From positions 1 through 37,430 of the IMG/VR virus record IMGVR_UViG_3300025086_000094: 37,430 nt of DNA. One strand, written 5' to 3'. Source of the stretch: a virus. Positions 1,614-22,207 of this stretch are shown piece after piece. Both the position numbers and the translations under genes were made by a program. Below the pieces are notes generated by a model. It ran no database searches, was not told the origin of the DNA, and saw only the letters and a program-made list of their open reading frames with translations. Each line of letters starts with the position of its first letter. Position 1 is the stretch's first letter.

Positions 1614-1905
1614 ATTTAGAGACCCTGTAGTTGAAAGAGTGTGTGACAAATTTGTAACACGTTCTGATGTGGGTTACAAAAAATACGGTAAGACATTACA
1701 TGATGAAAGAACAGGTAAACATAAAGATCTATTAGGTTATTTAAACGATATACAAGAAGAACTTATGGATGCAATACTATATATACAAGCTGCACGTGAA
1801 GAGTTGAAAGATCAAGCTGTTGTTGAAGCTGTAAGCTCAGCACAATTAGACTTTAACGATAGAAATGCAGGTTTACCTTATTACGTGACAGATGTTGCGA
1901 CGTAA
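1594..1905 (+). CDS. small MazG-like all-alpha NTP pyrophosphohydrolase-fold protein
   Basis: The 103-residue protein has a first helix leading to KKYGKTL (29-35), a Lys/His-rich loop, then a helix with EELMDAILYI (55-64). The order KYG-x-L then EExxDxxxY is typical of small phage proteins in the MazG-like all-alpha NTP-PPase superfamily, where the acidic residues (E55, E56, D59) bind Mg2+. The second acidic pair of a full MazG domain is not obvious, so it may work as an oligomer or be a divergent member. It would be the second dNTP-cleansing candidate in this cluster. The start context is TATTATTATG without a Shine-Dalgarno, and the 3' end overlaps the nuclease gene by 14 nt. The fold call rests on pattern recognition only. 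Confidence 0.55.
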   Translation: MTEKTIKFRDPVVERVCDKFVTRSDVGYKKYGKTLHDERTGKHKDLLGYLNDIQEELMDAILYIQAAREELKDQAVVEAVSSAQLDFNDRNAGLPYYVTDVAT

Positions 1906-2335
1906 AAAACGAGGTCCTGTACGATCTAAAAAAGTTATCGTTGATAACATAGAGTTTAAGTCAGGCCTTGAAGCTTATATGTATAAAGCATTAAAAGCTG
2001 CAAAAATAAAAGCTACATACGAAGGGATTACTTATGAATTAATCCCTTCATTTGACTTTAAAAATAAATGTTATGAAAGACAAGCAAACTCTAAAGGAGA
2101 GTATAGAAATAGAGGAGGCAAAGCGATACGTAAGGTCACTTATACACCTGATTTTACAGGAAATGGATTTATCATTGAATGCAAAGGACGGCCTAATGAA
2201 TCTTTTCCTATACGTTGGAAACTTTTTAAGATGTATGCCTCGAAAAAATTACCTAAAATTAGTATCTACAAACCTCAAAATCAAAAAGAGTGCGACGAAA
2301 CTATAAACATCATCCTAAACAAAGCGCAGCTTTAG
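1892..2335 (+). CDS. PD-(D/E)XK endonuclease, phage endonuclease/resolvase type
   Basis: The 147-residue protein carries the nuclease core TPDF (85-88) followed by IIECKG (94-99), giving Asp87 and Glu96-x-Lys98, with an upstream conserved Glu27 in the helix SGLEAYMYKAL. This layout (E, then PDF, then E-x-K-G) matches the small PD-(D/E)XK proteins of phages that include T7 endonuclease I-like resolvases and DUF1064-type proteins. It would cut branched DNA or host DNA during replication, recombination or packaging preparation. The N-terminus is very basic (LRRKKRGPVRSKK), consistent with DNA binding. It starts within the preceding gene. Fold and catalytic residues are well supported; the exact substrate is inferred. 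Confidence 0.75.
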   Translation: MLRRKKRGPVRSKKVIVDNIEFKSGLEAYMYKALKAAKIKATYEGITYELIPSFDFKNKCYERQANSKGEYRNRGGKAIRKVTYTPDFTGNGFIIECKGRPNESFPIRWKLFKMYASKKLPKISIYKPQNQKECDETINIILNKAQL

Positions 2336-2340
2336 CTCGT

Positions 2341-2448
2341 ATGCAATACAAAAATAGACAATTAGATAAGTTTATAAAATGGAGTATTGAAGTTAAAGGA
2401 TATTTAAAATTAAAAGAACTATTAGAATACGAAAAACAATATGAATGA
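2341..2448 (+). CDS. hypothetical 35-residue charged protein
   Basis: An ATG six bases after the nuclease stop opens a 35-residue frame rich in Lys and Glu with a likely single helix (residues 6-33). The frame is open further upstream, and a GTG at 2290 could extend it by 17 basic residues (VRRNYKHH...), overlapping the nuclease gene. It ends 8 nt into the next small ORF, in the nested style of the cluster. No family is recognised. It is supported only by position, spacing and the lack of a competing frame, so it may not be expressed. Confidence 0.4.
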   Translation: MQYKNRQLDKFIKWSIEVKGYLKLKELLEYEKQYE

Positions 2449-2596
2449 ATGGGAAATTAGTTTAGGTTTTTACCCTGGATTTTTAATCGGAGTAAGAACT
2501 TATAAAACAGTAAATAATGTATCCCATGTTTTTTACCTACCCTTTATAGATCTTTGTATTACAATACATAAAGATGAACAAGAAAAACCAACATAA
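2441..2596 (+). CDS. conserved-looking small phage protein (51 aa)
   Basis: The 51-residue product begins MNEWEISLGFYPGFLIG and continues to a hydrophobic HVFYLPFIDLCITI segment (29-42). The pattern (W-E-I-S, YPG-x-L-x-G-x-R-x-Y, then HVFYLPF-D) is one I associate, from memory, with short hypothetical proteins in several marine phages, which supports a real gene. Function is unknown. The aromatic and hydrophobic content suggests a small membrane-associated or beta-strand protein. It overlaps the upstream ORF by 8 nt and the tonB-like start by 23 nt, implying translational coupling. Confidence 0.6.
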   Translation: MNEWEISLGFYPGFLIGVRTYKTVNNVSHVFYLPFIDLCITIHKDEQEKPT

Positions 2597-3215
2597 ATTA
2601 ACCCATACTCTAAGCGGTATAGTGTTAGCTTTAGCTATAACATTATGCTGTTTAGAGTACAAAACAATATCTAGTAAGAATTACAAAATACAATCACAGT
2701 TAATACAACTAGAAGAAGAACCTATATTAGAAATAGAAATACCAAAGCCACCACCACCACCACCACCGCCGCCAAACGTAGCGGAAGAAATAGAGGTAGT
2801 TAAAGATGAAAAGGTAATAGATAAACCTATATTAATACTCAACGAAGATCAGGTTGATTTAGTTATAGATATAGAACCTGAACCACAACCTGTAATTGAA
2901 CAAATATTTGACGTTGTTGAAGAAAATCCTGAATTTTTTGGTGGTATTCAAAAATTATATGAATACTTAGGAAAACAATTACAATACCCAGAAATTGCTA
3001 GACAAAACATGATACAAGGTAAGGTGTTTGTACAATTTGTTGTTTGGAAAGATGGTAGTATAAGAAAAGTAAAAATTGTAAAAGGTGTTCATAAAACGTT
3101 AGATAATGAAGCTTTAAGAGTTGTTAAATCAATGCCTAAATGGAAACCTGGTAAGCAAAGAGGTAAAAGAGTTAATACCAAGTTTACTTTGCCAATAAAA
3201 TTTAAAATAGGATAA
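2574..3215 (+). CDS. TonB-family energy transducer
   Basis: TonB carries proton-motive-force energy from the inner membrane (with ExbB/ExbD) to TonB-dependent outer-membrane receptors. This 213-residue protein has the complete layout: short basic N-terminus, one membrane span (about 12-27), a periplasmic spacer with nine consecutive prolines (59-67) and acidic segments, and a TonB C-terminal domain (about 120-213). That domain shows EFFGG, YPEIARQ, GKVFVQFVV, DGSI and the block MPKWKPGKQRGK, ending in a LPIKFK strand, all in the style of Bacteroidota TonB proteins. No ExbB/ExbD gene is present in the window, so it would have to use host partners. The Pro run is encoded by CCA/CCG triplets that could vary in number by slippage. 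Function inside a phage is inferred; family assignment is firm. Confidence 0.92.
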   Translation: MNKKNQHKLTHTLSGIVLALAITLCCLEYKTISSKNYKIQSQLIQLEEEPILEIEIPKPPPPPPPPPNVAEEIEVVKDEKVIDKPILILNEDQVDLVIDIEPEPQPVIEQIFDVVEENPEFFGGIQKLYEYLGKQLQYPEIARQNMIQGKVFVQFVVWKDGSIRKVKIVKGVHKTLDNEALRVVKSMPKWKPGKQRGKRVNTKFTLPIKFKIG

Positions 3216-3433
3216 TGAAAGAAAGTACATTGCTAGAAATGCAAAATAAAATTAAATCTTTAACAAATGTAATACAACATTTGATGAATGAAATAGAATA
3301 CATAAGAACTGTTTCTTATGGTACATTAGAGACGATAAAGCAAATGCCTGATTATGAGGAAGCTTTAGGTAAAGTAAAAACAAAAGTTAAAGAAGCAAAA
3401 GAAGATGGAGTTATCGAACAAGATACTAAGTGA
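3215..3433 (+). CDS. hypothetical small coiled-coil protein (72 aa)
   Basis: Its ATG overlaps the TonB stop by one base (TAATG), which indicates translational coupling. The 72 residues are almost entirely helical and charged, with a heptad-like run (LEMQNKIKSLTNVIQHLMNEI, residues 7-27, in pieces) suggesting a coiled coil, and a Lys/Glu-rich tail. There is no signal peptide, membrane span or catalytic motif. It overlaps the RNR gene by 29 nt. Function is unknown. The coupling to TonB could mean a soluble partner, but nothing in the sequence proves it. Confidence 0.6.
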   Translation: MKESTLLEMQNKIKSLTNVIQHLMNEIEYIRTVSYGTLETIKQMPDYEEALGKVKTKVKEAKEDGVIEQDTK

Positions 3434-5267
3434 TATAACAGTATATATGAAATATGCAAAATATATTCCTGAATTAAACCGTAGGGAAACATGGGACGAA
3501 CTAGTAACACGTAACATGAATATGCACATTAAAAAATATCCTGAGCTCACAGATGACATTAAAACAACATATAAATTGGTCTATGAAAAAAAGATTTTAC
3601 CATCTATGCGATCGCTTCAGTTCGGAGGTAAACCGATTGAAATTTCACCTAATCGTGTTTATAATTGTGCTTACTTACCTATCGATCATATTGAATCGTT
3701 TAATGAGATAATGTTCTTGTTATTAGGTGGTACTGGTGTAGGTTATTCTGTACAGCAACACCATGTTGATAAATTACCTATGATAAGCAAACCTTATCAA
3801 AAAAGAACTAGAAGATTTTTAATAGGTGACTCAATTGAAGGTTGGGCGGATGCTATTAAAGTGTTAATGAAATCGTATTTAGGTGACAAAAGGAGTTCAC
3901 GAATAGAATTTGACTACTCTGATATACGTCCTAAAGGCGCTATGTTAGTAACGTCCGGTGGTAAAGCACCTGGACCTCAACCACTTAAAGAATGTATAGT
4001 TAAAATAACAGGAGTATTAGACTCAAAGGAAGAAACAGACACACTATCCACATTGGAAGTACACGATATAGTTTGTCATATAGCAGACGCTGTTTTAGCT
4101 GGTGGGATCCGACGCGCAGCTCTGATCAGTTTGTTCTCAGCAGACGATGATGAAATGATATCTTCAAAATCAGGAAATTGGTGGGAAACAAACCCTCAAA
4201 GAGGTAGAGCAAATAACTCAGCTGTGCTTATGAGACATAAAATAACTAAAGAATTTTTTATGGATCTGTGGAAACGTGTAGAGTTATCAGGAGCAGGTGA
4301 ACCTGGAATATATTTTAATAATGATAAAGACTGGGGTACAAACCCTTGTTGCGAAATAGCTTTACGACCATATCAGTTTTGTAACCTGTGTGAAGTAAAT
4401 GCTAGTGATATTGAATCACAAGAAGATTTAAACAACAGAGTGAAAGCTGCTGCCTTCATTGGCACGTTACAAGCAGGATATACTGACTTTCACTATTTAA
4501 GAGAAGTATGGCAACAAACAACAGAGAAAGACGCTTTAATAGGCGTCTCGATGACTGGGATAGGCTCGGGCACGGTATTAGGATACGACATGAAGAAAGC
4601 CGCTCAAGTAGTAAAACGAGAAAACGCAAGAGTCGCGAAAGCGATTGGAATTAATTCAGCGGCACGATGTACAACTGTAAAGCCTGCAGGGACGACATCT
4701 CTGGCGCTAGGAACGTCATCCGGTATTCATGCATGGCACAATGATTATTATGTGCGTAGGATCAGGGTTGGTAAAAACGAAAGTATATATAAATATTTGG
4801 TTGAAAACCACCCTATGCTAGTTGAAGATGAATTTTTTAGACCTCATGACACAGCTGTAATTAGTATACCACAAAAAGCTCCGGCTGGATCTATACTTAG
4901 AACTGAATCACCTTTTCAACTACTTGAACGTATAAAAAAAGTAGCAACAGAGTGGGTTGCACCTGGTCATAGAAAAGGTAGTAACACTCACAATGTTTCA
5001 GCTACAGTTAGTTTAAAACCTGAAGAGTGGGAAGATGCAGGAGAGTGGATGTGGAATAACAGAAAACACTATAATGGTTTATCTGTGCTACCATTTGACG
5101 GCGGGACATATACTCAAGCTCCTTTTGAGGATATTGACGAAGGAACTTATATAAATAAGTTGCAACATTTAAAAGATATAAATTTAGAAAATGTACTCGA
5201 ATCCGAAGATAACACTGATCTGTCTGGTGAGCTTGCTTGCGCTGGCGGTGCTTGTGAAATTACTTAA
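3405..5267 (+). CDS. nrdJ: class II adenosylcobalamin-dependent ribonucleoside-triphosphate reductase
   Basis: This enzyme reduces ribonucleotides to deoxyribonucleotides using a cobalamin-derived thiyl radical, supplying dNTPs for phage replication. In the 620-residue protein the expected cysteines are present: Cys88 in VYNC and Cys326 (11 after the radical Cys) as the redox pair, NPCCE (313-317) with the radical Cys315 and Glu317, and a C-terminal relay pair Cys612/Cys617 in CAGGAC. PAGTTSLALGTSSG (427-440) is the phosphate-binding loop region. The layout matches the monomeric Lactobacillus-type RTPR (about 740 aa, from memory), but is roughly 120 residues shorter, including about 60 fewer between Cys88 and Cys315. 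No NrdB-like radical subunit is needed. The N-terminal KYAKYIPELNRRETWDE supports the chosen start. Confidence 0.93.
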   Translation: MELSNKILSDITVYMKYAKYIPELNRRETWDELVTRNMNMHIKKYPELTDDIKTTYKLVYEKKILPSMRSLQFGGKPIEISPNRVYNCAYLPIDHIESFNEIMFLLLGGTGVGYSVQQHHVDKLPMISKPYQKRTRRFLIGDSIEGWADAIKVLMKSYLGDKRSSRIEFDYSDIRPKGAMLVTSGGKAPGPQPLKECIVKITGVLDSKEETDTLSTLEVHDIVCHIADAVLAGGIRRAALISLFSADDDEMISSKSGNWWETNPQRGRANNSAVLMRHKITKEFFMDLWKRVELSGAGEPGIYFNNDKDWGTNPCCEIALRPYQFCNLCEVNASDIESQEDLNNRVKAAAFIGTLQAGYTDFHYLREVWQQTTEKDALIGVSMTGIGSGTVLGYDMKKAAQVVKRENARVAKAIGINSAARCTTVKPAGTTSLALGTSSGIHAWHNDYYVRRIRVGKNESIYKYLVENHPMLVEDEFFRPHDTAVISIPQKAPAGSILRTESPFQLLERIKKVATEWVAPGHRKGSNTHNVSATVSLKPEEWEDAGEWMWNNRKHYNGLSVLPFDGGTYTQAPFEDIDEGTYINKLQHLKDINLENVLESEDNTDLSGELACAGGACEIT

Positions 5268-5386: not shown

Positions 5387-5914
5387 TTATTTTTTGTTCC
5401 TAATATGTCTACTCATTTCTAGACCTAACTCTTTTCCAAAGTCAGAGTCTGATTTATAATGAGCTCTAGCTACGTTTCTACTATCTGAAATATCGTTAGC
5501 TACCTTATCTAGTTCTTTTGATTTTTTTGGATACTTGTTTTTTAAATAATCGCCTATTAAAAAACCTTGAGCGGAATGACCTGATGGATATGAAGGAGTA
5601 TCCATAGATTTTAATTCTATATTGTCTAATTTTAAACCAAAGTTTTTAGCTAAATCTTTTGGCCTAGGTCTATTGAAGTAATTCTTTAATTTTTTTATAT
5701 GAGGAACAGATTGCTCTATTAGAATATCTATATCTTCATCGTCACCTACAATATTTTTAAATTCAGCTTCAATGTTATCATTTTTAGATACAAATTCTTT
5801 ATCCATTTTTATTTTAGATAAGTTTTTAATTTCCTGCAATGTATTTAAAGAGTTGTCACCTGGAGGTTGCTTACCTTTAAACACTTCTATATCAAAATCT
5901 TCTAACATTTCCAT
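5387..5914 (-). CDS. soluble PAP2-superfamily acid phosphatase
   Basis: The 175-residue protein has all three motifs of the PAP2/haloperoxidase phosphatase family: K77-x6-R84-P85, P110-S111-G112-H113, and S145-R146-x5-H152-x3-D156. His152 would be the nucleophile and His113 the acid/base. These enzymes remove phosphate from lipids, nucleotides or small phosphoesters. There is no signal peptide or membrane span, so it is probably cytoplasmic or packaged in the virion; the acidic N-terminal 70 residues are unassigned. It is the last gene of the leftward virion operon, overlapping the upstream gene by 13 nt, which suggests co-expression with virion proteins. Substrate cannot be told from the sequence. 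Family call is strong. Confidence 0.88.
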   Translation of the reverse strand: MEMLEDFDIEVFKGKQPPGDNSLNTLQEIKNLSKIKMDKEFVSKNDNIEAEFKNIVGDDEDIDILIEQSVPHIKKLKNYFNRPRPKDLAKNFGLKLDNIELKSMDTPSYPSGHSAQGFLIGDYLKNKYPKKSKELDKVANDISDSRNVARAHYKSDSDFGKELGLEMSRHIRNKK

Positions 5915-6730: not shown

Positions 6731-9700
6731 TTACTTGTTTAGTTCTATTATTTTATTTACTCTATCTTCTTCGTATTTAAGTCTTTTTATAGCATCAGTA
6801 GTTAAACCTAACTGTCTTAAACTATCTATTTGCTCTGCTTTCTTAAGTTTAAATAACGTTTTTTTAGTTTTTTCTAGTTCAATAGCTTTATACTCTTCTG
6901 CGGTAGGTAGCTTTTTAGGATAATACTGTCTAGTATTTCTTTTCTTAACCTCAGCTCTATATTCTTTTCTACCTTGAGCTTCCTTAGCATATCTTTCTTC
7001 TCTTTGAACTTTATTTTCTAACTGCCATTTAGGCCAACCCATTAACATTGCTACTCTTTGCCAAGTTTCATTTGTATCGTCTAAAGCTCCTTGAATATTT
7101 TCTACCTTTTGAAATAGTCTGTCTATAGGAACGTTAGTAACTGCTGATATAACTTTAGCAGCTGCTCTATATGAAGGATTATTTATATTAAAAGGTTCAT
7201 TAGCTTCAGGTCTCCAAGAGTTCATTTCATAATCTCTTAAACCACCGCTGAATTTCTTTAGCTTAATAGATATTGGAGGACTAACTTCTAATAATTTAGT
7301 ATCAGCATCTGAATATTCAGGTCCTGGCCAAGTTCCTTCTTTTTTAGACCTATCGTAAAGATCCATAACAGTATTTTTAACTGTAGATAATATAACCCCT
7401 TGAACGCCAATACCTCTTAATATATTATCTAACATACTATTTGCTGTTTTAATAGTATCTTTATCTATTTCTTCTTCATCATCACCAAAACCTGTAAACA
7501 TCAATGCTGACTGAAGAGCTGTAAACAATAAGTTTTGTGCAAACCCATAATATAGTATTTTACTAACATTAGATTTCCAATCACCTCTATTATTTACTAA
7601 GTCTCTTCCAGCTTTATCCATTATTCTAGCATACTGAGATGGCGTGTTTGCAAAAGCTAAAACTAATCTACCTAAGTTTGACGATTGCTGTTGTGATATT
7701 TTATCGGGTCTAGCAGACTGTTGAGATTCTTCAGCCGTATCTCTAAAATCTAGAAAAGCTTTCGCCTCAGCATCAGCTTGGCTCATACCTTGTTTTACAT
7801 AAGTGTTAACTCTATTCCTGTAGAACGTGGCACCACCTGTCGCTATAGCAAAACTATCAGCAAACTGAGTTAGAACAAAACCTTTATTCAATAAATAACT
7901 TATAACACCTTTAACACTATTACCTGTTGTTTTAGCAGCTTCTGCTATTTCAGATTCACTTACATTTATTTTAAGTCCATTACGTCTATCTACTAAAAAG
8001 TCAGAGTTCATAAGCGACATAAAATCTGTCCAATATTGTTTTTGATTAGCAAAAGCTTTACCTGCTTTTAAAGGATTGTTGTCAGTCCAGTTCACAAAGT
8101 TAACAGCAGATATAGTTTGAAGAACAGCTGATCTAGCATTTAAGAACATAACAGCACCAACAGAGTTATTTATATAATCGGTAAATCTTTGTTCAAGTCT
8201 ACTGGCGCCTTGTTTTCTATTTCTACCAGTCTTCATTCTTCTTATAGAATCTTCTATAGCTTCTCTGTATTTAGATCCAAAAGCAGCTTCTAATTTGTTT
8301 AGTGTTTTTTCGTTAAAAGCTAAATCTATATTTTGATTCCACTGCTCTAAAACTCTTGGTCTAGTCTCTGTTCTTAAACCACCTAAAAAATCAGTTGTTA
8401 TAGTTCCAGCAAGCCAATCACCACCTGGGTAATGATAACCATCTTGTTTAGTAATAGCTATTAGTTGATTAACAAAAGTATCTATTTCGCCGTTGTCTTC
8501 TACAAAATCTCTAATTTGATTTAAGTCTCTCTCTGAAAGACCATCTACTTTTATACCTTGTCTATCCCAAGCAGCGATTCTAGTAACATCTTCATATGTA
8601 AAACCTCCAAAAGCTTTCTTTTTTAAGTTTTTAGGTATACCATCTAAGCTATTTTTTAAAGTCTTAAAGTCAGCCATTAATTGGTTTTGAGCCACAGATA
8701 AATCATTCATACCTCTACTAAATGGCTTAATTAAATTTTCTTGCATCCATTGCCATTGAGCCTCTCCTTTTTCTCCTTTTCCTAAAAGCTTATACAATAA
8801 ACCACCAAAATCTTGAGCAGATGGAGGTATTAAACTCCAAGAGTTTTTAGTCCTACCTCTTGCTTTAGCTCTCATAGAAGAATATTCTTTATATGACTCT
8901 ATACCTGTTTTATCATATATAATATCATTCATAGTTTGATCAACAGTTCTACTAAATTTTATTTTAGCTTGTTGAACTTTTGATTTAACATCTAATTGAG
9001 ACATTGCTAGTTTAACGGCATCTACGTTTTGCATAGCGTCATCAGCAAAGTAAAAATCATTAAAACCTTCAGCTGCTTTACCCACTAACCACTCTGCTTT
9101 TGCTTCTCCTGTGCTATTGCCTAATCCTATTATATTGTCTAATTTAAACTCTAAACCTTCTGACTTTAAAAATTCATATATAGCAGGTGCGGCTTCGGGT
9201 GCTCTAGCTGTTAATACAAATAAATCTTCATTTCCTCTAGCATTTCTTATTTTTTCAGCTACATCAAAAAGTGGTCCTCTTTTACCATCTACAACTTGGT
9301 TAAATTCTGAAAAGTCAAACACATAACCTTCACTCAACAACTTAGCACCATCAGTAGCAAACTCTTCAGCGTTTAATTTACCTTGAGTACCGTCAGGTGC
9401 TGTATACAAAACGTTACTATTTGTTCTAGCTAATGTGTCATCAAAATCAAATACTCTTATTTTTTTAACATCAGCATTAGGATCTCTTGCTACATCTAAA
9501 GCGTTATCTAATGTTATAGATGTTTGTACATTTTCAAAATTATTATTATTACTTGATTTTTTTATACCAACTACACCACTGGACTCGTTTTGTTTACCAG
9601 TTTTCTTTCCTGACTCTTGAATATCTTTCCATATCTTAGCATCACCTTCGCCATATATTTTACCCGTTTTTAAATCTCTAACAGGGTGAACTTCACCTCC

Positions 9701-12700
9701 TTTAGTAAACATGTTATACCATCTAGTAGTTGGCAAGTCGCCTAGTTGATACCCAAAGTAAGCTCTAGACTTAAAGAACTTACCAAAGTTATTATCCATA
9801 TCAACGTCTATGACTCCAACAGTATAACTATCTTTTAGTTTTTGCAGATCAGCTTCATTTTTTATATAACCTTTTCCTTTGTTAAAATGATAATCAAGTA
9901 AAAACAGGTTTACAACTCTTCTAGGTAACCCATGCTCGTATTCATATGCTTTACCACCTCCTGGTTTTTTAAGTTCTTTATATTTAGGATCTACAGGAAC
10001 AAACCTTAAAGGAGCAGCCATAGCTAAAGGACTATCCATACTAGCACTCATACTAGCATTAAGCATCAACAACATTCTATTATCAAAAGCTTGTTGTTGT
10101 GGATCTTTAACTATATCCGCCATTAAAGCATATGTCTCATTTATAAAATCCCAAGCATCATCTGCCGCTTCTTCTCTTTTAGCAACCTGTTCGTCAGATA
10201 TTGATCCATCAATCATACTTTCATTAACCTTTTGCGGAGGTACATTGTACGGAACTGTAACTGTTTCACCGTCAATTGTTACAATAACGTATGATTCTTT
10301 ATTTATGGAAGTTGTTTTGTAATCAGTTATACCAAATATTGGTTCTAAAAAATTTTTTATATAACTATCTTTGTCACCATATAAAACCCCATTACCTTTA
10401 TCTTTGGCACCTACATACTTATTAGAACCTTTACTTATTAAGCCTTTATATTTTATAAAATTAATACCTACATTTAATTTAGCTTCAGTAGTACCATCTG
10501 CTTCTACCATTTTAGAAACAACAGTGTTCATAGCTTTTTCATAAGTTTTTCTAACAACATCATCTTGAAACATAGCGGCAGCCGCTTCACTAGGTAATCC
10601 TAATATCTTCTTAGAAGCATTTATATCACCTTCTTCCATCGCCATTTCTAAGCTAGAAACATATGTATCTATTTCAAGTTCTATACCTGGGTAAGTTTCT
10701 TTTTGACTAACTAAATTACCTACTAATTTTTTGTATTCATTTTTAATTTGAGTAGCCCACTTGCTTGGTATCTCACTCTTTTTTCCATAAACATCATTCC
10801 AAGCATTTGTTACATTTTCACTAGTAACACCTAAATATTTCAACCTATTAAAGAAAGTTTGTCTCTTGTTTAAGAACATGTCTTTAGTATTTTGGTCGAC
10901 ATCGGAGTCTAAAAATCTTCTTGAGAACTTAGTTCCTAAACCTTGTTGAGCAACTTGAGCAAAACCATTTATTAACTCATCTGCGTTTAAAGTTTTCAAC
11001 TCTGGATTACCTAACGTCATTTTTTCTATAACATCAGGATTACCTAAAACATCCATTGTAGCGTCTAAACCTAGCTTACCGGCCATATTCTTAGCTAAAG
11101 CATCTTTCCTACCTCTTTTCTTAAAAAATTCTACAAACTGATCAGGAGTTGGATTTAATCTTTTATATAGTGTAGGTCCAGATGTTTTGCTAGTATAAAC
11201 TAATCTTCCACTACCTTCATATTTAGCTATATCACTAGGTGATATATTTTCTTTTTCTACAACTGCAAATATTTTGTCTTTAGATAGCCTTTCCATTGCT
11301 ACTAAATCACTAATGGGAAGCCCGCTAGATGATAATAAAGACTCTTGTATATCTTTTAAATACGTTTCATAATTAGCGCCAGTACCCATTTGTTGTTTTA
11401 TCTGTGTAAATAAAACAGTATCGTACGCGTTTCTTAACTTAAGTCTAACATCTTTATATATTCTAGCTATATCAATGTCAGCTTGATTTTTATCTGCTTT
11501 ACTAGCTTTAGGATCTTTTTTTATTTCTAAAGCTTCTTTTAAAGTAACAACAGTGTCTTTTTGTCCTTTCTTTTTTCTAGTGTATTCAAATTTTGGAACA
11601 GATGAACCACCTAAAACAGTTTCAACTTTACCTTTTATATCATTATATAAATCGGTATCTTCCTCTATTTTTAAACCTTCTCTAAAACTTAATTCACTTT
11701 CTATAGTACCTTGCTGTTCAGATATTAAGTTTTTTGTTTCTTTACCTACTAAACCATCTAAATCTTTAGTTGAAAAATCATTAAATACTTCTCCGCTTTT
11801 TAATACATCACCAATTCTGTTACTTAATCTAGAGTTTAAATAACCATACAAGCTAGTATTAGTTTTATTAAAACCTCTAATATCTGGAAGCATTGCTAAT
11901 TTAACAGCTTGTTGTAGTTCGTTAAGATCAACGTTATTTAATAAGTTAACTACACTACCATCTTTAGTTCTAAAACTTCTAGCTTTAGCTTCTATCATTC
12001 CGTCTAACTCTTGGTTTATTTTTTTAATAAAAGGATTTCTTTGATTATCTACTACAGTGTTTGAATTTCTATTACTTCCCGATGGCCATTCATTTTTAAC
12101 CTCATTAAAAGCTTCGTTTATGTTTTTCTTAGCATTTTGACCTTCTCTTGAAGCTGGTTCTTTACCACCGCCCATAGCAGATGAAGGAGCACTTGCAGCC
12201 CCACTTACCATGTCCCTTATTTTTTTAGCGTTAGATTTTATTTTATCCATGTAGCCTTTAGGTTTATCCGCTAAAAGCTTTTTATTTTCCGCTACTAATT
12301 CAGCTTTGCTTTGTGAGCTTTTCTTAGTTCTTGATGCTGCTGCTTTACTAGTTGTTTTATCAGTAATGTCTATAACTTTAGTTTCTTTAGCTTGATCTAA
12401 TAGTTTTCTATCAAATTTACTTTTAGAAAGATCCTGTCCCATTCCTAATAAGAATTGAGCTACATCATTAACACCTTTAAAATCTATTTCATAACCACCA
12501 GCTTCTTTAAGACCATTAGATAATTGTTTACCTAAATAAGCTGTGAAAGCCTTGTTTATTTTAGGATCTATTTTACCTGCTGCAACTTCCTCAACAAATG
12601 CTGAAATTACTTCATCATAGTCAAAACCTCCTTGACCATCTTGTAATCTATTAGTACCTTCTGTTTGCATTCTTAACCATAGGTCTGAGTAATTGCTACT

Positions 12701-15700
12701 TAAAAAATCAACAATAACTTGACCAGCCATATCAAAAGCTTCAGGATTTTGTTTAATAAGCTCTATAGTTATACCATGTGAAAGCTCATGCAATGGCACA
12801 CCTGGTTTTTGATTATTTATAGCATTTTCTTTAAAAGTAAATTGAGTATTTGTTAGTTGATCATAATAACCATTTAAGTCTCCATTTTCAATACCATCTA
12901 ACGCGTCTGTTATTTGTTGCTCTATATACTCTTTATAAGTTAAACCATTTTCCATCACTCCATCGATGTCTAAACCTTGAGCTTCTAAAGCGTTTAATTG
13001 TTTCGCTAGTATATCAGGCAGCAAAGACTTAGCTTCCTTGTTAGTATCAAAATTAAAAAAGCCAATACCTTTCTTTTTAGCTATAGTTCTAGCCTTATCT
13101 AGGTTAATATTATAATCTCTTGTATCAACTATCTTTATTGATTCGATTTCTATCTCTCTCGCTGTAGGGCCATCTACTAGAGGTCCTTTGTCCGCTATGA
13201 TGTTCTCTATAGCCTGCTGCTCTATCTTTTGTACCTCTTTTCTAGTCTTAGAATCCCAAACAGCTTTACCTTTCATCGCTATGAACTTATTTCCAAAATT
13301 TCTTTTATTTTTTAATTTATTTTGAATGTTTAATAAGTTATTATATTTTTTATCTAAATCATCTAATTTTAATTTTTGATCTGCACTTAAATTACCAGCA
13401 GCGTCTGCTATTATATTTCTAGCTTCTATTTTATATTCAGATATTTTAAGAGCGTTTTCTGCTGCAAGTCTTCCAGCGGCTTCTGAAATTCCATCATCTA
13501 CTAATTTAGATTCTACTTCTAACTGTTTAGTCATTAACAGTCCAGCTTGTTCATTTATCTCTGAATTAATAGTTTCTAATTCTTCTGCTATTTTTATGGA
13601 TTGTTCTATTTTATTTATACCGTCCACAGTTGTTTTAGCCGGCAAAGAATTTAACATTTGCAATTCTCCTTCTAGTATATCTTTTTTATTGCTTAATTCG
13701 TATATCTTTAAGTTTGTTTCATTGATTGAGTTTATTTCAGCGTTAGTTGCAAAGTCAGCAGTAATATAAGCGTGCATCATAGGTACTCCTTCAAACACAC
13801 CACCTAAAATAAATCCACCAGAATAAGCTTCTAAAGTACCATCCATTATAGGTCTTCCGTCTACCAAGTTAGTTCCCATAGTTACACCAACTTCTCCGAT
13901 ACCCTCTAAGTTTGCTGACTTAAGCCACTCAGGAGCTTTCTTTTTTAGGTATTGACCAGTTCCAGTGAATAAGTTGCTAGCAGCATTCTTATTTCCTCTA
14001 ATTACAGAATAAGCATCAGATATTTGAGCAGATGTAGTTAAATAAGCACAAGTTCCTTCAACAGCAAAATATGCAGATCCTTTTGCTATATATTCTGCTC
14101 TTCCTATTTTTTTATCTTCTAATTCTAACTTTAATTTTTCTTTTTCTTCAAAATCTATATCATCTCTACTCTCTAACTCAGATAATTCTTCATTTATCAT
14201 AAAGTTAGTTACATCCATTTCACTAAATTTTCCACCTCCTGACGAAGCACCAGCAACAACTGAAGAAATAAGTTGACCGTATGAAGCGCTTCCACCTGAA
14301 AGTACCATAGCTGCAACTATAGGTAAAGTTTCAGCTGTCATGTCCGTTATCCATTCACCAAAACCAAAAAATACATCCCAAGCGGATTTACCCTCAGTGT
14401 CTATCATGTCAGCGAAACTAGTTGTAGAAAAATTATATTCCATTTTTTCTTCATCTAACCAATTTGTTAATTGAGCATTAACATTTCTAACAGATTCCAT
14501 AGGATCGAAACCAGCACTAACACTAGCCCAGTAATAAGGGTTTGTGTAATTCGCGGCACTAACGCCAAAGTATACTATGTTTTTTAGTGTAGCAAGTCCC
14601 GTAATACCCATCTTAACAAAAAATCTTTGAGTATCATTATAATTCATTTGCCATATACTCATTTGCTCCCTAAAAGTAGGTATGTCTGCTAGTACTTTAC
14701 TATATTCATTATTATAAACACTTACCGTATTACCAGCATCAAACAAAACTTGAGCACTAGCCGTGTAGTTATTTATAACTGAAGTGGTAATTGTTTCTAC
14801 CGCTTCACCATCGTCCCAAGTAGGATTCAAATATGTTCCAGCTTCTATAAATTGTATCTTTCTCTCACCATCTACCATTTTAGCAACATAACCATCTTCA
14901 AGAGTTATATTTCTATCTGTTGGTATCATTCCTCCAAAATATAAACCACTATTTATATTAATACCGGTTTTTCTGAAAGCTTCAGCAGATTGACTTTCAC
15001 CAAACAAAAACTTAACTGCTAATCTATTATTAACATCACTAGAATATTTTTCAAAAACAGTGTCATATTTTTCTTGAGCAACTTCTTTTTTTAGAATTGC
15101 ATCTCCAAGAATTATCTCATCTTCAACATTGTTTAATAAAGAAGCAGCAATCATAGAGCCTTGCCTAAGGTTTTCTTTATCTAAACTATCAGCTTTTTCT
15201 ATCCACTTTTCAATGTTAATTTCATAGAACTTTTTCTTCTTTTCGTTTATAACAGCGTTCTTAGCTGTTTCCATTATAAATTCTTGAGTTGGTGGAGGAA
15301 GATTTAAAGATTTAAACTGAGCTATTAAACCTTCTTTAGTTTGCTGATATAACGTACGGTTTTTTAAAAAGTCAGTACCTAAATTAGGATCAATGGTAGT
15401 TTCGACGTAACCCCCAAGTATATCACTCGCGTAAACAATACCGCCAGCTGGTTCCACCGGTGGTAAATCTATATCCGTCTCAGGACCAGCAACTCCAACT
15501 TCTTCAAAATTAGGGTCCCCTTCAAGACCTGTTACACCTGTTGTACCTGTTGTACCTGTTGTACCTGTTGTACCTGTTATACCTTGAGGACCTGTAACGC
15601 CTTGAGGACCTGTAACGCCTTGAGGACCTGTACCGCCTTGAATACCTGTCGGACCAGACGGTGCGATCTCTTCACCTAAAAAATCAGTCGTTTCTGTACC

Positions 15701-17107
15701 ACCTATACCCGTTGGCCCAGTACGCTCTAATTTTGAAGGAGGAACATCAGGACCAGCGTATGGGTTTTTTTCTCCATGAAAATCGATCTGCATGTCAACT
15801 GCTGGATTGTAATCAGGATCATTACCAAACATTTGTTCGTATGATTGGTTTTCTAGATTACTTATAACCTTAGATTGAGCGGTAGTAAAACCTATACCAC
15901 CTTGATCTGCAGATTTTGCCTCTAGATTTTTAGCAAAATTTCTTAAACCTCCTGTTTTAGATCTCCAAGAGGTAAGTGATTTAGTAGTAGCAAAATCTAC
16001 AAAGTCAGTAAGATCATCTCCTCTTAAAAATCCCATTGTCATCAAATCGTCATCGCTAAAAGTAGAATTTTTTATAAAATATTTAAAAGGTTCGTATTCT
16101 TTTTTTGATTCACCACCAAAAAGCATTCCGTCTTTACCTACAGTAACTACTACAGATTCGCCACGTTGGTTAGTTATTTTTATAGCATCGTTATCATCAG
16201 CACTATTTGTTTCCTCTAGTTTAAATAAGCTACCATCACCTGTTGGCGGTAAAGCTTGTTTAAGAGTTACAATATCTACACTTTCACCTTTAGAACTGTT
16301 CCATCTATTATTTAAAAACATTTCATCAAAATAAAAATCAAAACCTTTTTCAAGTATTATTTTTGATTTATTTTCTTCATAAGAAATATCTCCGGTTAAT
16401 CTTTTAGTAGTTTCTAAAACTTCTGAACCTTCATTTGATGACACAGACCAATTAACATCTGGATTAACTTTGTTTAATGCTGTAATATAAGAATCAAGTG
16501 TTATAGTTTCTGGATTTAAACCAGTAAATGAAGCGGCTTCTTTTACAAAGCTAGGGTTATAATTTTTTGAATTTTCATCGAAATAACTTTCAAATAATTT
16601 TTTATCAAATTGTTGTTTGTATTCTTTACCGTCTTTAATAGAGCTTTTTACAATGACCTCGTCTCCCTTTTCCACAACTAAATCTTTCATTAGTCTAGCA
16701 AGTTCTTTTTCTCTTTTCGCCCGAGCAAGGCTGTTATATGTGGGATCAATAAAGTTTTTTAATTGTTGAGTTTGATCAGCACTATTTTTTTGAACCTTAC
16801 CAGCTGTTTTACCATCGTTAATATCGCTGATTATCATTTCATCACTAACTTCAACCTCCTTGTCTACGTCAAAAAGACCTTTTGGTGGTGGATCACTTTC
16901 TACTACTGTAGCTATTGGTTTGTTCTCTTTCTTCTTTTTCTTGTCATCACCTTCACCATTATCAATAATAGACTCAGTATCTGTTAAAGATATTATCTCA
17001 TTACCTGGACCAGCTAAATACTCGTCAAAAGTCATACCATAGCTATCAGCTCTTTCCTGTATTTGAATTTCATCTACGTCATTCCCTCTGTAAGAATATT
17101 TTCTCAT
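6731..17107 (-). CDS. giant polyvalent ejection-type virion protein (3458 aa)
   Basis: One uninterrupted 10.4-kb frame takes up 28% of the window. From the N-terminus: an acidic, Lys-rich low-complexity region (1-480); collagen-like Gly-x-y repeats (about 485-529); a region with hydrophobic, Gly/Ala-rich membrane-seeking segments (about 828-868, 910-965, 1006-1040 and 1086-1123); coiled-coil regions (about 1125-1330); a HELSH zinc-metallopeptidase motif (1440-1444) with a candidate third ligand in [10 protein letters not shown] (1498-1507); a long unassigned middle (1600-2540) holding a [11 protein letters not shown] motif near 1750; a HAD phosphatase domain (D2554-x-D2556-x-T2558, T2633, D2689/D2690); and a conserved helical C-terminus (about 2970-3210, with [23 protein letters not shown]) resembling LPD38-type polyvalent-protein domains. 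Its position after gp14/gp15-like genes suggests it is the functional counterpart of T7 gp16, injected with the genome. No lytic transglycosylase motif is visible. Confidence 0.8.
15523..15655 (-). repeat. collagen-like Gly-x-y coding repeats with nested DNA tandem repeats
   Basis: Within the giant gene, about 45 codons read as Gly-Pro-Thr, Gly-Pro-Gln, Gly-Val-Thr and Gly-Thr-Thr triplets. At the DNA level there are four copies of a 9-bp unit (ttgtacctg, 15541-15576) and three to four copies of an 18-bp unit (ccttgaggacctgtaacg, about 15583-15650). Both periods are multiples of three, so copy-number changes keep the frame. The repeat would form a trimeric stalk or flexible linker. Confidence 0.85.
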
Positions 17108-17116
17108 ATAATATAT

Positions 17117-18817
17117 TTAAGGTAAATCGTAACTATTGTTATTATTAAATTTATCTTTACTTAAGTACTTAAAAGCTTTAGCTGATGTTTTTAACCCAAC
17201 ACCTGCTCTATAAGCTATAAGTTGCATTAATAAACCTTCTTTAACTTCTCCTTTATCATCAAACAGGTCAAATTCAGATTTACCTATCTTAACCACGCCT
17301 GGCTTATCGGGATTTATACCACTAATTCTATTAAACTGATTTCCTTCTCCAGAGTTAATCATATCTACAACTTGAATAGCAAAATTTTCTTTATCAAGTT
17401 TTCCATCAGTTCTTGGAGTAGCGGCATCGTTAGCATATTCTCTAACTTTTCCATAAATATTATTAATAACATCTCTATTTGAATTTAAAACTGACTCTTC
17501 CTCTACAGTTGTCTTGTTCAATTCTACTCTGTCTCTATTAACTACTTTCATTTCGTCAATAGAACTAAACCCTCCTTTTTCTTGGAGCTTAGTAAAATAA
17601 TCTTCAGCAGACAGATCTAAATCTAGAGCTTTGCCTTCTTTATCTACTGCTACAAATTTACCGTCTATCTCTTTACCTTGTATCAAACCTCTTCTTAAAA
17701 GTTGTTTTTGTATACCTGAATTTATTAAATAAAGTCTAGCTTTGTTTCTGTTTTCTTCATTTTTTTCATTACTTTCAGTAAAATAATCAGTATCTTCACC
17801 CATTATATCTCTCCAAACACTGTTCATAGCGTTTTTATCGTCTAAAAGAGTTGTATAAGCATTTATCTCTAACTGATCTTTCTGCATCTTGTTAGTGCTA
17901 TTAGCATCCATAGTAACTTTAGTAGATGTAGTACTGTAATCACCAGTCTCGTCTACCTCATAAGTTTCACTAACTATATAATAACCATTATTATAGTTGT
18001 TCATGTCCATTATCTCTGGAGCTTCATTAAACTTTGCTTGGTAAGCACTTATAGGAGTTATTCTTTTAACAGCGCCTTTAGCACCACCATCCTTCAGTAA
18101 CTCATCTAAGTTTACTAAAGCACCTTGATTTTTAGCACCTAATTCTTGATTATAAACACTTCCATCTTTGTTTGTTTCAGCTACATTAAAAGATCTTAAC
18201 AATTCATCATTACTAATAGTTCCGTCAGACATGTATTTTTTTTCAGCATCTTCAGGAAGTTTCATTAGCCATACGTTTCCAGTTTTAGGATCTTCTACTG
18301 TATAAACATTACCACCCTGAGCTATGCTACTAAATATAGTTATAACTTCTTTTGGAGTTGTTGCTGTGGATATACCATTTTCTTCACCAGCTGTACCTGC
18401 AGATTCGTATACCTCATTTGCTATTTTTAATATCTCAGGAATATAAGTACCCATTTTTTCAGCGTTAAGCATCATGTTGTTTAATATCTTATTACCCTCT
18501 CGCTTATCTATCTCACCTTTACGCATACCGTTTTTTATATCATAATACTTTTGTATTTGATCGTCGTAGTACATTCTTAAATTATCGTCAAACATCTTAC
18601 CTGAATCCGATGTGTCTACACTATCAAGTTTAAAAGCATATTGATTTTTAGAATACTCTAACTGATCAAGCTCTTTTTTATTTATTTTTCTTTGCTGTAT
18701 AGAATAATCTATTTGATCACTTAAGCTATTAACTATAGCGTTGTTATTCGCTTGAGTCATTCTAGCGAATATTTCCCATGTCTTGTTTATTACTCTTTGA
18801 GGATTTTCATAACTCAT
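17117..18817 (-). CDS. internal virion / ejection protein (gp15-like position)
   Basis: The 566-residue protein is mostly helical, acidic and charged, rich in Asn, Asp, Lys and Glu, with coiled-coil-prone stretches at 30-65 and 90-145 and no membrane span or catalytic motif. It ends 9 nt before the giant gene and starts 2 nt after the 249-residue gene, so the three are tightly linked. In T7-like podoviruses the order gp14-gp15-gp16 encodes the ejection proteins that form the DNA channel; size and order here (249, 566, 3458) parallel this. No sequence similarity to T7 gp15 is claimed. A tail or internal core protein is the best inference. Confidence 0.55.
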   Translation of the reverse strand: MSYENPQRVINKTWEIFARMTQANNNAIVNSLSDQIDYSIQQRKINKKELDQLEYSKNQYAFKLDSVDTSDSGKMFDDNLRMYYDDQIQKYYDIKNGMRKGEIDKREGNKILNNMMLNAEKMGTYIPEILKIANEVYESAGTAGEENGISTATTPKEVITIFSSIAQGGNVYTVEDPKTGNVWLMKLPEDAEKKYMSDGTISNDELLRSFNVAETNKDGSVYNQELGAKNQGALVNLDELLKDGGAKGAVKRITPISAYQAKFNEAPEIMDMNNYNNGYYIVSETYEVDETGDYSTTSTKVTMDANSTNKMQKDQLEINAYTTLLDDKNAMNSVWRDIMGEDTDYFTESNEKNEENRNKARLYLINSGIQKQLLRRGLIQGKEIDGKFVAVDKEGKALDLDLSAEDYFTKLQEKGGFSSIDEMKVVNRDRVELNKTTVEEESVLNSNRDVINNIYGKVREYANDAATPRTDGKLDKENFAIQVVDMINSGEGNQFNRISGINPDKPGVVKIGKSEFDLFDDKGEVKEGLLMQLIAYRAGVGLKTSAKAFKYLSKDKFNNNNSYDLP

Positions 18818-18819
18818 AA

Positions 18820-19569
18820 TTAACTCATTTTAAGTGCGCCTCCTAAGAACGCTGATCCTACCTGTCCGTATGCTCCAGCAGCCGCTAAATCAGCTTGCAT
18901 CATACCAGCTTGAGCGTCGTTAGCCATTTGCATATAATTCATTTGCATTGCAGACGCATTATTAAGATCTTGCATTGATCTAGCCTCTAAAGTTTCTTGC
19001 ATAAATTGATTGCCTTGACCTTGTAGAGTCATGACTTTTTCTTCACCAGCAGCTTTTAATGTATCAACATCCATTTGTCCTTTAGCTATCTGAGCTTGAA
19101 CTTCCATAGCTCCTTGTGCAGCTAGTTTTTGATTTTGCGCCTCTTGTCTTTGTATGTCAGCAGAAATACCTCTTTTACTTTGAAGTGCAGCTTGTGCTAA
19201 TGCTGTAGCTCCTCCACCACCAGAACCAGTCATAGCTATAGTGTCTAATGTATTTGCTAAAGCTATATCAGCTTGTTCTGCTTGATATTCTGCAGCTTGA
19301 GTAGCAACGCCTAAATTAGCATATTGATTAGTTAACTTTGCGTAAGGATTTTTCATGTTTGCAAACGCATTAGTCATGTTTTTATATGGATTATATACGT
19401 TTGGTCTATTTTCCTTTATTCTATTAAGTTCTCTCTCCCATCGAGCTGCATCGCTTGCTGCTTGACCAGCCATTGACTCAGCTTGCTCTTTAGCTTGATT
19501 ATTTTTCCAGAGAGAAGCCGCTGTGCTAGCACCACCTATTAAAAGAGCTGTAGTTATTCCTATTGGCAT
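18820..19569 (-). CDS. internal virion protein, gp14-like (Ala/Gln-rich)
   Basis: The 249-residue protein starts with a hydrophobic, Gly/Ala-rich segment (GITTALLIGGASTAASLW, 4-21) and continues with long Ala/Gln/Met-rich helices, an NPY-rich section (56-87), a GSGGGG loop (116-121) and a Gly/Ala-rich end. This composition, with an N-terminal membrane-inserting segment, is typical of T7 gp14-like or P22 gp7-type ejection proteins, which line the channel through the cell envelope. It lies directly upstream of the 566- and 3458-residue genes. Assignment rests on composition, length and order, not on a diagnostic motif. Confidence 0.65.
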   Translation of the reverse strand: MPIGITTALLIGGASTAASLWKNNQAKEQAESMAGQAASDAARWERELNRIKENRPNVYNPYKNMTNAFANMKNPYAKLTNQYANLGVATQAAEYQAEQADIALANTLDTIAMTGSGGGGATALAQAALQSKRGISADIQRQEAQNQKLAAQGAMEVQAQIAKGQMDVDTLKAAGEEKVMTLQGQGNQFMQETLEARSMQDLNNASAMQMNYMQMANDAQAGMMQADLAAAGAYGQVGSAFLGGALKMS

Positions 19570-19610: not shown

Positions 19611-21491
19611 TTAAAATCCTGATTTACTAAAAGTTGTGGATACTGCAAAAAGTTCTTTCATACCTCCAACATCTGTAACGTCGTCTACAGAAAAAGTAAC
19701 AGTAGCATAATTTGCTTTTACGCCTGCTGTATGTTCATTATCATTTATAGAACTAAATTGTATTTCATCAGGTCTAGTAACAGAATTGCTTCTTAAAGAA
19801 CCAACATATAGATTTTCTTTTCTATCAAATCCAGATCTATATATAGGAGGTGTTTGTATATTAATTCCATATCTAGGACCAGCTGGAGCTGGAGTAGAAT
19901 CATAAGCTCCGTCTATGTAACTTCTGATAGGTATAATAGAATCTTTATAAGAATTATATATATTAAAGTTATAACCTAAGTTATCTACAAAGTTGTCTTT
20001 TTCTTGCATGTCAGATTCAAAAGAGCCACACTGCCATCCGCTGGTTCCCTCATAGTTTACAGTTAAAAAGTTTTTACTTAAATCTGGTTGAGGATTAAAA
20101 ACAAAAGTTACCCTAGAAGGTGTTCTAACACCGTAAAAATTACTTCTATTATTACCTGAGTTAACATTATGTTCATAAAGTTTACCACAATAAGCAGAGT
20201 AATATTTATTTTTTAAACTACCACACCATTCTGGATTATAGCTAAAGTAACTTGTCCAACCTAAAACTGACTCATCAAAAGCTAAAGTAGAATAACTTTC
20301 TTGTCCTTGATTTTCTACAAAGTATGAGTCACCCTGCTGCAATGATAATTGATATTGTTTAGTATATATATCCCAACCACCAATTATTCTTGGCTTAGTA
20401 AAACCAGTGATCTTCACTTGATCACCATTTACAACCGTACCTGGTAGAGGATCACTAAATGTTATTGTGTACAAACCTTGATTGTCTGCTATGTTTGTAA
20501 CTGTTCCTATAGGTAGAAAGTTAGCGTTACCATCAGAGTAAGAAACAACACTGCCTATATTAATTAAATCAGCAACTTGATTAGCAATAACAGATACTAC
20601 ATTAGGAGAACTTGGATTAAAGTTTCCACCGACACTTATTGTAAATAAAAACTCCTTGTAATTAAGTTGATCTTTATAAGTTGAAAAAGAGTCTCTAAAC
20701 CAGTCAACCATACCGTAATTTGATATCTCTGTTAAACCATCTCTAGATAATCTCATAACAGCATTTCTACTAGTATCTGTAAAATATTTTCTAAAACCAT
20801 AAACTGCGAATGATTCCGGGTTTTTGCTTATTCCGTAATCACCTACATAAGGCACTATTTGACCTATAACTAAATTAGTTGATGTAACAGCTCCACCACC
20901 CTCAGCAGAGAATATAGCATCTTTATCTATCAAAGCTCTGCTTATTTTATCTTCTTGACAAACTATTAAATTAGTATCTTCAGCATATAACTTTTGAACA
21001 CTTCCGTTGTGAGGATCTAAAGCTTTTGTTATAGCATCACCTACAGGAAAAACATTTGTTTCATTGAAGTTGGTATTACTATTAAACGGTCCAGAATATA
21101 TCAACGCATTTGATCTAACTTTTTGTAATGGATTTTTTTCGTTTAAGTAAGCTTTAACTCCTAAATCAGTAACAACATTATTAAATCCACCTCTTATTCT
21201 ACTTTCTTCTATATAATAATTTTGGCTAACAAAAGTTGGATCTGGTGTATTTCCTGGTTCATACCCAGAGCAACCTAAAGAATTATTTGTAGGTGTACTG
21301 TCGCTTTGTTCAGCATCTGCAAAGTCTATTGGTCCTGGCCAAGTAAAATTACCATTAGTATTAGTAACTACATAACTACCAGTTGATGTTCCTTTTTCTG
21401 TAACTTCAGTACACAGATCTCCAGTACCTATTCTTTTAACCCAATACGAGTTAAAGTAACTAACTTCTATTATTCCGTTAAAATTACTCAT
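19611..21491 (-). CDS. tail nozzle/stabilisation-type beta-rich structural protein
   Basis: The 626-residue protein is beta-rich with many Gly, Asn, Tyr and Ser and few charges. The blocks AEDTNLIVCQEDKISRALIDK (in pieces, around 165-190), SKNPESFAVYGFRKYFTD and NAVMRLSRDGLTEISNYG, plus a C-terminal DVTDVGGMKELFAVST, look like repeated beta-propeller or beta-sandwich strands seen, from memory, in podovirus tail nozzle or stabilisation proteins of Bacteroidota phages. It would form part of the tail tip between the ring proteins and the receptor-binding parts. It follows the 237-residue gene by 2 nt. It may share one functional unit with the 1611-residue protein upstream. Confidence 0.6.
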   Translation of the reverse strand: MSNFNGIIEVSYFNSYWVKRIGTGDLCTEVTEKGTSTGSYVVTNTNGNFTWPGPIDFADAEQSDSTPTNNSLGCSGYEPGNTPDPTFVSQNYYIEESRIRGGFNNVVTDLGVKAYLNEKNPLQKVRSNALIYSGPFNSNTNFNETNVFPVGDAITKALDPHNGSVQKLYAEDTNLIVCQEDKISRALIDKDAIFSAEGGGAVTSTNLVIGQIVPYVGDYGISKNPESFAVYGFRKYFTDTSRNAVMRLSRDGLTEISNYGMVDWFRDSFSTYKDQLNYKEFLFTISVGGNFNPSSPNVVSVIANQVADLINIGSVVSYSDGNANFLPIGTVTNIADNQGLYTITFSDPLPGTVVNGDQVKITGFTKPRIIGGWDIYTKQYQLSLQQGDSYFVENQGQESYSTLAFDESVLGWTSYFSYNPEWCGSLKNKYYSAYCGKLYEHNVNSGNNRSNFYGVRTPSRVTFVFNPQPDLSKNFLTVNYEGTSGWQCGSFESDMQEKDNFVDNLGYNFNIYNSYKDSIIPIRSYIDGAYDSTPAPAGPRYGINIQTPPIYRSGFDRKENLYVGSLRSNSVTRPDEIQFSSINDNEHTAGVKANYATVTFSVDDVTDVGGMKELFAVSTTFSKSGF

Positions 21492-21493
21492 AG

Positions 21494-22207
21494 TTAAGCT
21501 TTTAGTCTTACTGATATTGGTGCGTTTATAAGAACTTGAGTAGCTCCCACACCATTAGGCGCCCATTGCCCATAATTATCCCAAATTCTTAATTGATGAC
21601 CAAATTTACCACCGGTAGTAGGATACATTTGACCAGCATTGAAGTTGTTAGTGTCAATTCTCATAAATATTTTCCACACGTCATATGTTTCTTTTATGTC
21701 AGTCCATTGATTTAAGTTTCCTTCTGAGGCTTGTACAGCATTTAAAAATTCACCTTCACTAACAACAGGGTTAAGGTTCGGTAAAGGGTTTGTTAAACAA
21801 TTACCCATTTCAGATCCTTGCCAATACCATTCAATTTGAACACCCCATTCAATAGGTGCTGATGCTGGTTGTCCAGCACCTCCCCAACCTATATTAGCTA
21901 TATTACTAACATATCCACGGTTGTTTGAATTAAGACTTTGTGTTGCTTGACTTCTACAATGCCATCCTATAGCTGCGCCATTATAAACATTAGGATTTTC
22001 AGTAAAATCTCCAGTATTGGGTCCGTTATCTCCTATCTCTTGTTCAGGCACATTTCCTGTACCAGGGCCTGGACTCCAAATAGCATTAGCTGAAGTTAAA
22101 GCTATTGCTCTACATCTAGATATTTGACCACTTGTAGCAAAATTAACTCCTGAACCAGGGTAAGTTAGTATACATCCGTATCCTTGACCAAATTGACTTA
22201 TTGCCAT
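21494..22207 (-). CDS. putative tail protein, Gly/Asn/Trp-rich (237 aa)
   Basis: The 237-residue product is beta-rich, with 13 or so Trp, many Gly and Asn, four Cys and few charged residues, typical of extracellular virion proteins such as tail tip, fibre or receptor-binding modules. No family motif is recognised. It sits between two large tail proteins, 17 nt after the 1611-residue gene and 2 nt before the 626-residue gene, so a role in the tail is inferred from context. The high Cys and Trp content compared with its neighbours suggests a compact, perhaps host-facing domain. A carbohydrate-binding role would be speculation. Confidence 0.5.
   Translation of the reverse strand: MAISQFGQGYGCILTYPGSGVNFATSGQISRCRAIALTSANAIWSPGPGTGNVPEQEIGDNGPNTGDFTENPNVYNGAAIGWHCRSQATQSLNSNNRGYVSNIANIGWGGAGQPASAPIEWGVQIEWYWQGSEMGNCLTNPLPNLNPVVSEGEFLNAVQASEGNLNQWTDIKETYDVWKIFMRIDTNNFNAGQMYPTTGGKFGHQLRIWDNYGQWAPNGVGATQVLINAPISVRLKA

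Follow-up and report, generated by a model that had tools for sequence, protein, structure and literature searches.

A 3458-residue polyvalent protein with a zincin domain and mosaic cargo as a candidate ejection protein of marine flavophages

The viral DNA analysed here (the window; 37,430 nucleotides, IMG/VR record IMGVR_UViG_3300025086_000094) contains a gene of 3458 codons, hereafter the giant. It is one unbroken frame on the minus strand, with its ATG start codon at 17107 and its stop codon ending at 6731; the plus-strand reading of 6731-17107 is stop-rich. The single 10.4-kb frame reported in a first-pass annotation was thus recovered, together with its strand, which had been left unstated. 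As the final large gene, the giant closes a late operon on the minus strand. Portal, capsid and tail genes belong to this operon, and its first gene, at 37326, occupies the terminase position by synteny and gave no Pfam match. Immediately upstream lie a 566-aa protein in the position of gp15 and a 249-aa protein with a hydrophobic N-terminus in that of gp14 (Table 1). The earlier description of these neighbours as gp14/gp15-like therefore holds for their position, whereas sequence comparison revealed no relation to T7 gp14-gp16. No homologue of the 566-aa protein was found in the cultured phages compared. For the 249-aa protein, iterated profiles also established links to phi38:1 gp099, elemo gp20 and Panino 072, and its counterpart in phi18:3, gp120, has been detected by MS/MS. 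Further upstream, the minus-strand genes 19611-21491 and 22225-27060 match the C-terminal and N-terminal parts, respectively, of one protein that occurs undivided in phi38:1, phi18:3, elemo and MW202828; a 237-aa gene (21494-22207) sits between the two halves, and Panino shows a similar split.

Table 1 Features of the giant and its upstream neighbours (window coordinates).
Feature	Position	Strand	Evidence or occurrence
Giant, whole gene, 3458 aa (coordinates include the stop)	6731..17107	-	long homologues in ~95 contigs
566-aa protein, gp15 position	17117..18817	-	homologues in 16-26 related contigs
249-aa protein, gp14 position	18820..19569	-	profile-linked to phi18:3 gp120
N1, residues 1-460, lineage-specific	15728..17107	-	among giants in L003 only
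Collagen-like Gly-X-X run, residues 485-532, 16 triplets	15512..15655	-	PF01391 E=1e-5; tandem DNA repeat
N2a, residues 613-899	14411..15274	-	present in 10 giants
N2b, residues 916-1169, delivery-type region common to virion proteins	13601..14362	-	blastp, profiles, alignment
Zincin block, residues 1206-1588	12344..13492	-	window and 75 family members; alignment
HELSH motif, residues 1440-1444	12776..12790	-	H, E, H invariant in 48 sequences
E1499, candidate third zinc ligand	12611..12613	-	invariant in 48 sequences
M block, residues 1734-2109	10781..11908	-	41 members
V block, residues 2241-2506, globular, invariant EHxxP	9590..10387	-	alignment; AF2 pLDDT 88, pTM 0.82
HAD phosphatase domain, residues 2536-2715	8963..9502	-	alignment; phrog_415 E=5e-7; weak PF11019/PF12710
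C domain, residues 2719-3458 (core 2722-3367), all-helical	6734..8953	-	universal in family; AF2 pLDDT 59

Portal and capsid relatives of the window include cultured phages of Flavobacterium (elemo), Cellulophaga (phi38:1, Calle, phi18:3) and Maribacter (Panino), and podoviral morphology is documented for Calle and Gundel, which represent the two families concerned (PMC8776804). The whole giant, searched directly against cultured phage records, gave no match at E 1e-3. A search of IMG/VR with the C domain returned at least 571 confirmed stretches, and genome assemblies added 11 contigs, mainly from MAGs of marine Bacteroidota; contigs assigned to MAGs of unrelated organisms, namely L108, L109, L111 (Woesearchaeota MAG RS366) and L112 (Maricaulis MAG), are probably misbinned flavophage contigs. 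A set of 105 family members was extracted, and the 97 with an uncut 5' end measure nearly all between 2.1 and 3.7 thousand residues. In each of five relatives examined, the giant gene (1691-3859 codons) occupies the same position at the end of the virion module. The giant of Panino (L019:18229-23718, CDS0069), likewise at the end of its structural module, carries "tRNA methyltransferase" as its sole annotation, a name probably derived from one cargo domain.

The connection to virion proteins is provided by N2b. Residues 916-1187 of the window protein match phi38:1 gp101 by blastp (E=1.7e-10), phi38:1 gp101 and phi18:3 gp123 match one another (E 3e-12 to 3e-16), and the iterated N2b profile also reaches phi18:3 gp123 and elemoE gp18, the links from the window to phi18:3 and elemo being detectable only with such profiles. 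The annotation of phi18:3 gp123 reads "experimental MS/MS proteomics", phi38:1 gp101 is annotated as structural by similarity, and elemoE gp18 is annotated as structural too. The segment-wise profile searches proposed in the first-pass annotation thereby led from N2b to virion proteins, and as one of these is known from MS/MS, packaging of the giant is well supported: judged by its relatives, it should very probably be present in the virion. N2b contains a conserved Gly-rich hydrophobic stretch near residues 928-960 (LPIVAAM..SGG), with the counterparts LPVLATLAISGG in phi38:1 and LPILLSIGLAG in elemo, and its alignment holds one invariant Glu. It forms the most hydrophobic segment in 19 of the 31 N2b-bearing proteins, compared with about 11% expected by length. 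The hydropathy peaks of these proteins lie mostly under the usual transmembrane cut-off, and no segment of the window protein attains it (top Kyte-Doolittle value 1.22, at 930), so that of the membrane-seeking segments described earlier a conserved hydrophobic site persists, while strong membrane segments are not supported in this copy.

The metallopeptidase motif noticed previously proved to be part of a conserved catalytic block. In an alignment of 48 diverged zincin blocks with a mean column identity of 18%, the only invariant columns are H1440, E1441, H1444 and E1499, which is the set of ligands and catalytic residue expected of a zincin according to the fold description in PMC5512222. HExxH is found in 93 of 97 relatives as opposed to 0.4% of shuffled versions, and two of the four relatives devoid of it are short pieces. 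Pfam searches with the zincin blocks of family members returned weak Peptidase_M78 and SprT-like matches, and the alignment gave nothing significant against PDB profiles. With HExxH and a conserved downstream Glu ligand both in place, as in zincin-like metallopeptidases, the sequence predicts a real and intact zinc-protease domain. HExxH is missing from phi38:1 gp101, phi18:3 gp123 and the Panino giant and present in the elemo giant; hence, the zincin is not required for ejection in every lineage.

The HAD phosphatase domain recognised in the first-pass annotation was corroborated by the conservation of all its motifs. DFDDT at 2554, T2633, K2670 and DD at 2689-2690, corresponding to the DxDxT, T/S, K and DD elements of the superfamily, are conserved in a 24-sequence alignment and kept in 83 of 86 members. 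The alignment gave nothing significant against PDB profiles. The matching family phrog_415 is named polynucleotide kinase; direct comparison with T4 PseT aligned motif I alone (probability 39%). The window protein contains no 5'-kinase domain of the kind found in a T4-type polynucleotide kinase-phosphatase. A P-loop kinase was detected in five relatives only: in four of them (L036, at 9017-9583, L063, L066 and L076) it interrupts the HAD domain, separating motif I from motif II, whereas the fifth (L098) carries it in another part of the chain, outside the HAD. Its matches are AAA_33, Zeta_toxin and the polynucleotide kinase family phrog_505, and weak PDB matches include zeta toxin and 4gp7, which we take to be the kinase domain of a bacterial Pnkp. 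A role of the HAD domain in the repair of nucleic-acid ends is possible, though less likely than not.

Comparison of the M alignment with PDB profiles gave nothing of note. The V block, whose EHxxP motif occurs in 45 of 45 members, yielded nothing significant against PDB profiles, and its confidently predicted structure found no convincing partner with Foldseek, where the lowest E values were 0.6 (PDB) and 0.1 (BFVD), or with VIA-align (best Z 4.1). As the latter match is confined to the variable N-terminal 48 residues, the modelled V core appears to have no structural match, which does not prove a new fold. The conserved helical C-terminal domain of the earlier description is indeed universal in the family and all-helical; its AF2 model, built from 16 sequences, is of low confidence, and fold comparison gave no Z above 5.2, which is noise level for helical models. 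A Pfam scan of C-domain members produced weak scattered matches only, and C and V belong to no Pfam or PHROG family. Scanning 72 unassigned stretches of the relatives against Pfam and PHROG revealed little except the P-loop kinase and uncharacterised PHROGs. In the giants of L006, L007 and L017, zinc-knuckle-like tails (RCTKIKSDGTRCK...CHFH) are appended to the C domain, and that of L017 is duplicated.

The blocks of the giants are mosaic. In C, the window protein shares 77-78% identity with its nearest relatives (L001-L003), which have no V, whereas L072, L073 and L077, only about 51% identical in C, possess V at 35-42% identity. Where two members share more than 75% identity in C, 32-37% of such pairs differ in V and none in HAD. 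An assembly chimera as the source of the V discordance was rejected because M, V, HAD and C recur in the same order in L072, L073 and L077. Other giants bear other cargo, such as DUF3293 in elemo and, in Panino, probably the domain behind the annotation of its giant as tRNA methyltransferase. Such a pattern would be expected of a delivery chassis whose cargo can be exchanged.

Several known systems share parts of this design. Phage polyvalent proteins are typically encoded near late virion genes, with the zincin as their commonest domain (PMC5512222), and the giant resembles the polyvalent proteins of phages and conjugative elements described there by Iyer et al. 2017 in its disparate domains, zincin hub, mosaicism and late-gene neighbourhood. 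At least two domains of disparate activity (zincin and HAD, plus V) are predicted in the giant, and its gene lies beside late virion genes, as is usual in phages. HAD and nested kinase-HAD domains were not found among the polyvalent architectures in the parts of PMC5512222 covered here. Polyvalent proteins as such are an already described class, and it is the C and V domains that are absent from the family libraries searched. The open-access papers searched contained no description of the giant family or of the nested kinase-HAD, which does not prove that none exists. Closest in virion-module position are phi18:3 gp123 (Pachyviridae), phi38:1 gp101 (Pervagoviridae) and elemoE gp18 (Elemovirus), which carry N2b like the giant, but have neither the C domain nor the HAD motif and bear different cargo. 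Coliphage N4 displays the same three-gene layout of a small protein, a virion protein of ~645 aa and the vRNAP gp50, which with ~3500 aa is the last gene of the structural module, contains an HExxH zincin and is injected with the DNA. A marginal match between the zincins of gp50 and the giant places both HExxH motifs in register; the giant blocks show no similarity to gp50 outside the zincin, and no RNA polymerase domain was found in the giant. The T7 core set gp14/gp15/gp16 follows the same order of small, medium and large proteins, presumably with a similar ejection role; no homology to it and no transglycosylase domain was detectable in the giant. Crassvirus phi-crAss001, a podovirus of Bacteroidota, stores large proteins in its head and ejects them by partial unfolding (PMC10172136). 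By analogy, drawn from the literature only, no other structural example comes as close to the exit of large, partly unfolded proteins from the head by way of the tail, although the cargo there (gp45-gp50) is related to RNA polymerase, unlike the giant.

Taken together, the homology of N2b and of the 249-aa protein to virion proteins proven by MS/MS, the operon position and the zincin combined with mosaic cargo argue for the polyvalent, ejection-type protein suggested in the first-pass annotation. We consider the giant to be a virion-packaged, ejected protein with a delivery N-terminus, a central zincin and C-terminal cargo, with a probability of roughly 0.72. Injection itself is probable from the class to which the giant would belong, and we infer the presence of the cargo half in the virion solely from its residing on one polypeptide with N2b. 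In the course of events that we infer, including the direction of ejection, the role at the membrane and the substrates, the giant would be packed in the head together with the 249-aa and 566-aa proteins as a podovirus three-gene ejection set, and would exit N-terminus first, with the Gly-rich hydrophobic region of N2b aiding its passage and that of the DNA across the envelope. The zincin may cut the chain between a delivery half (residues ~1-1200) and a cargo half (~1650-3458), either in the capsid or after entry. Cleavage of its own chain by the zincin is a published hypothesis for polyvalent proteins (PMC5512222), to which we assign about even odds because the N4 vRNAP is packaged uncleaved despite its zincin, as the same source states. 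The cargo half would finally work in the cytoplasm, where the HAD may be active as a phosphatase whose substrates are probably nucleotides or the ends of nucleic acids, with V as a putative further enzyme and the universal C domain as a helical platform.

A purely structural ejection protein, in which HAD, V and C have their roles in assembly or the organisation of intracapsid DNA and no effector works in the host, would fit the gene position and the N2b homology, and phi18:3 and phi38:1 are infectious isolates even though their smaller giants have neither HExxH nor the HAD motif. We nevertheless regard it as improbable, since zincin and HAD retain their catalytic residues while almost all else diverges, and since cargo blocks are gained and lost around a constant C, unlike in a structural scaffold. 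Even less probable is a non-virion cytoplasmic polyprotein made late for assembly or lysis, with the virion annotation of the relatives reflecting the shared N2b only. The virion link of the window protein does rest on relatives, and those giants that are annotated from proteomics or as structural have no C domain; against this, N2b, the 249-aa neighbour and the gene order all point to virion proteins, and N2b and the cargo reside on the same polypeptide. A tail-fibre or stalk protein, to which the collagen and tail-fibre PHROG profile matches at 461-576 would correspond, was discarded as next to negligible, as these matches fall entirely on the Gly-X-X run that is absent from the other 110 of the 111 sequences compared and is the sole support for a stalk, and as a fibre would not be expected to bear catalytic domains or a helical C domain. 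Of the collagen-like stalk claimed previously, the triplets themselves are real, with a PF01391 match slightly under Pfam's gathering score, but they are a peculiarity of the window protein rather than a conserved family feature.

If the reading of the giant as an ejected polyvalent protein is true, its family would offer a catalogue of what marine flavophages deliver as infection begins. Among these proteins there would be candidates, open to testing, for enzymes that counter defence early in hosts of ecological importance. The mosaic family may serve as a natural experiment, in which a near-constant C domain and a delivery-type region are combined with exchanged cargo. One unlikely, more specific version holds that the self-processing giant injects a pre-made end-healing enzyme, namely the HAD phosphatase, joined in some relatives by the polynucleotide-kinase-like domain nested at the cap site of the HAD. 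Damage done to tRNA or DNA by the defence nucleases of the host would then be mended before expression of any phage gene, with V as a new enzyme fold delivered likewise.

Two further genes of the window are of note. Directly downstream of the giant, 5387-5914 on the minus strand encodes a PAP2-type phosphatase (motif PSYPSGHS) without a membrane helix, homologues of which follow the giant in 11 related contigs; lipid or undecaprenyl-phosphate is a possible target. On the plus strand, 2574-3215 encodes a TonB-like protein with an N-terminal membrane helix (hydropathy 2.0), a proline run and a TonB C-terminal domain (PF03544, E=4e-22). Close homologues occur in the related contigs L070 and L082, and C-terminal matches in nine phage records of gut or metagenomic origin. 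The alteration of TonB-dependent uptake or receptor use by a phage would be unusual.
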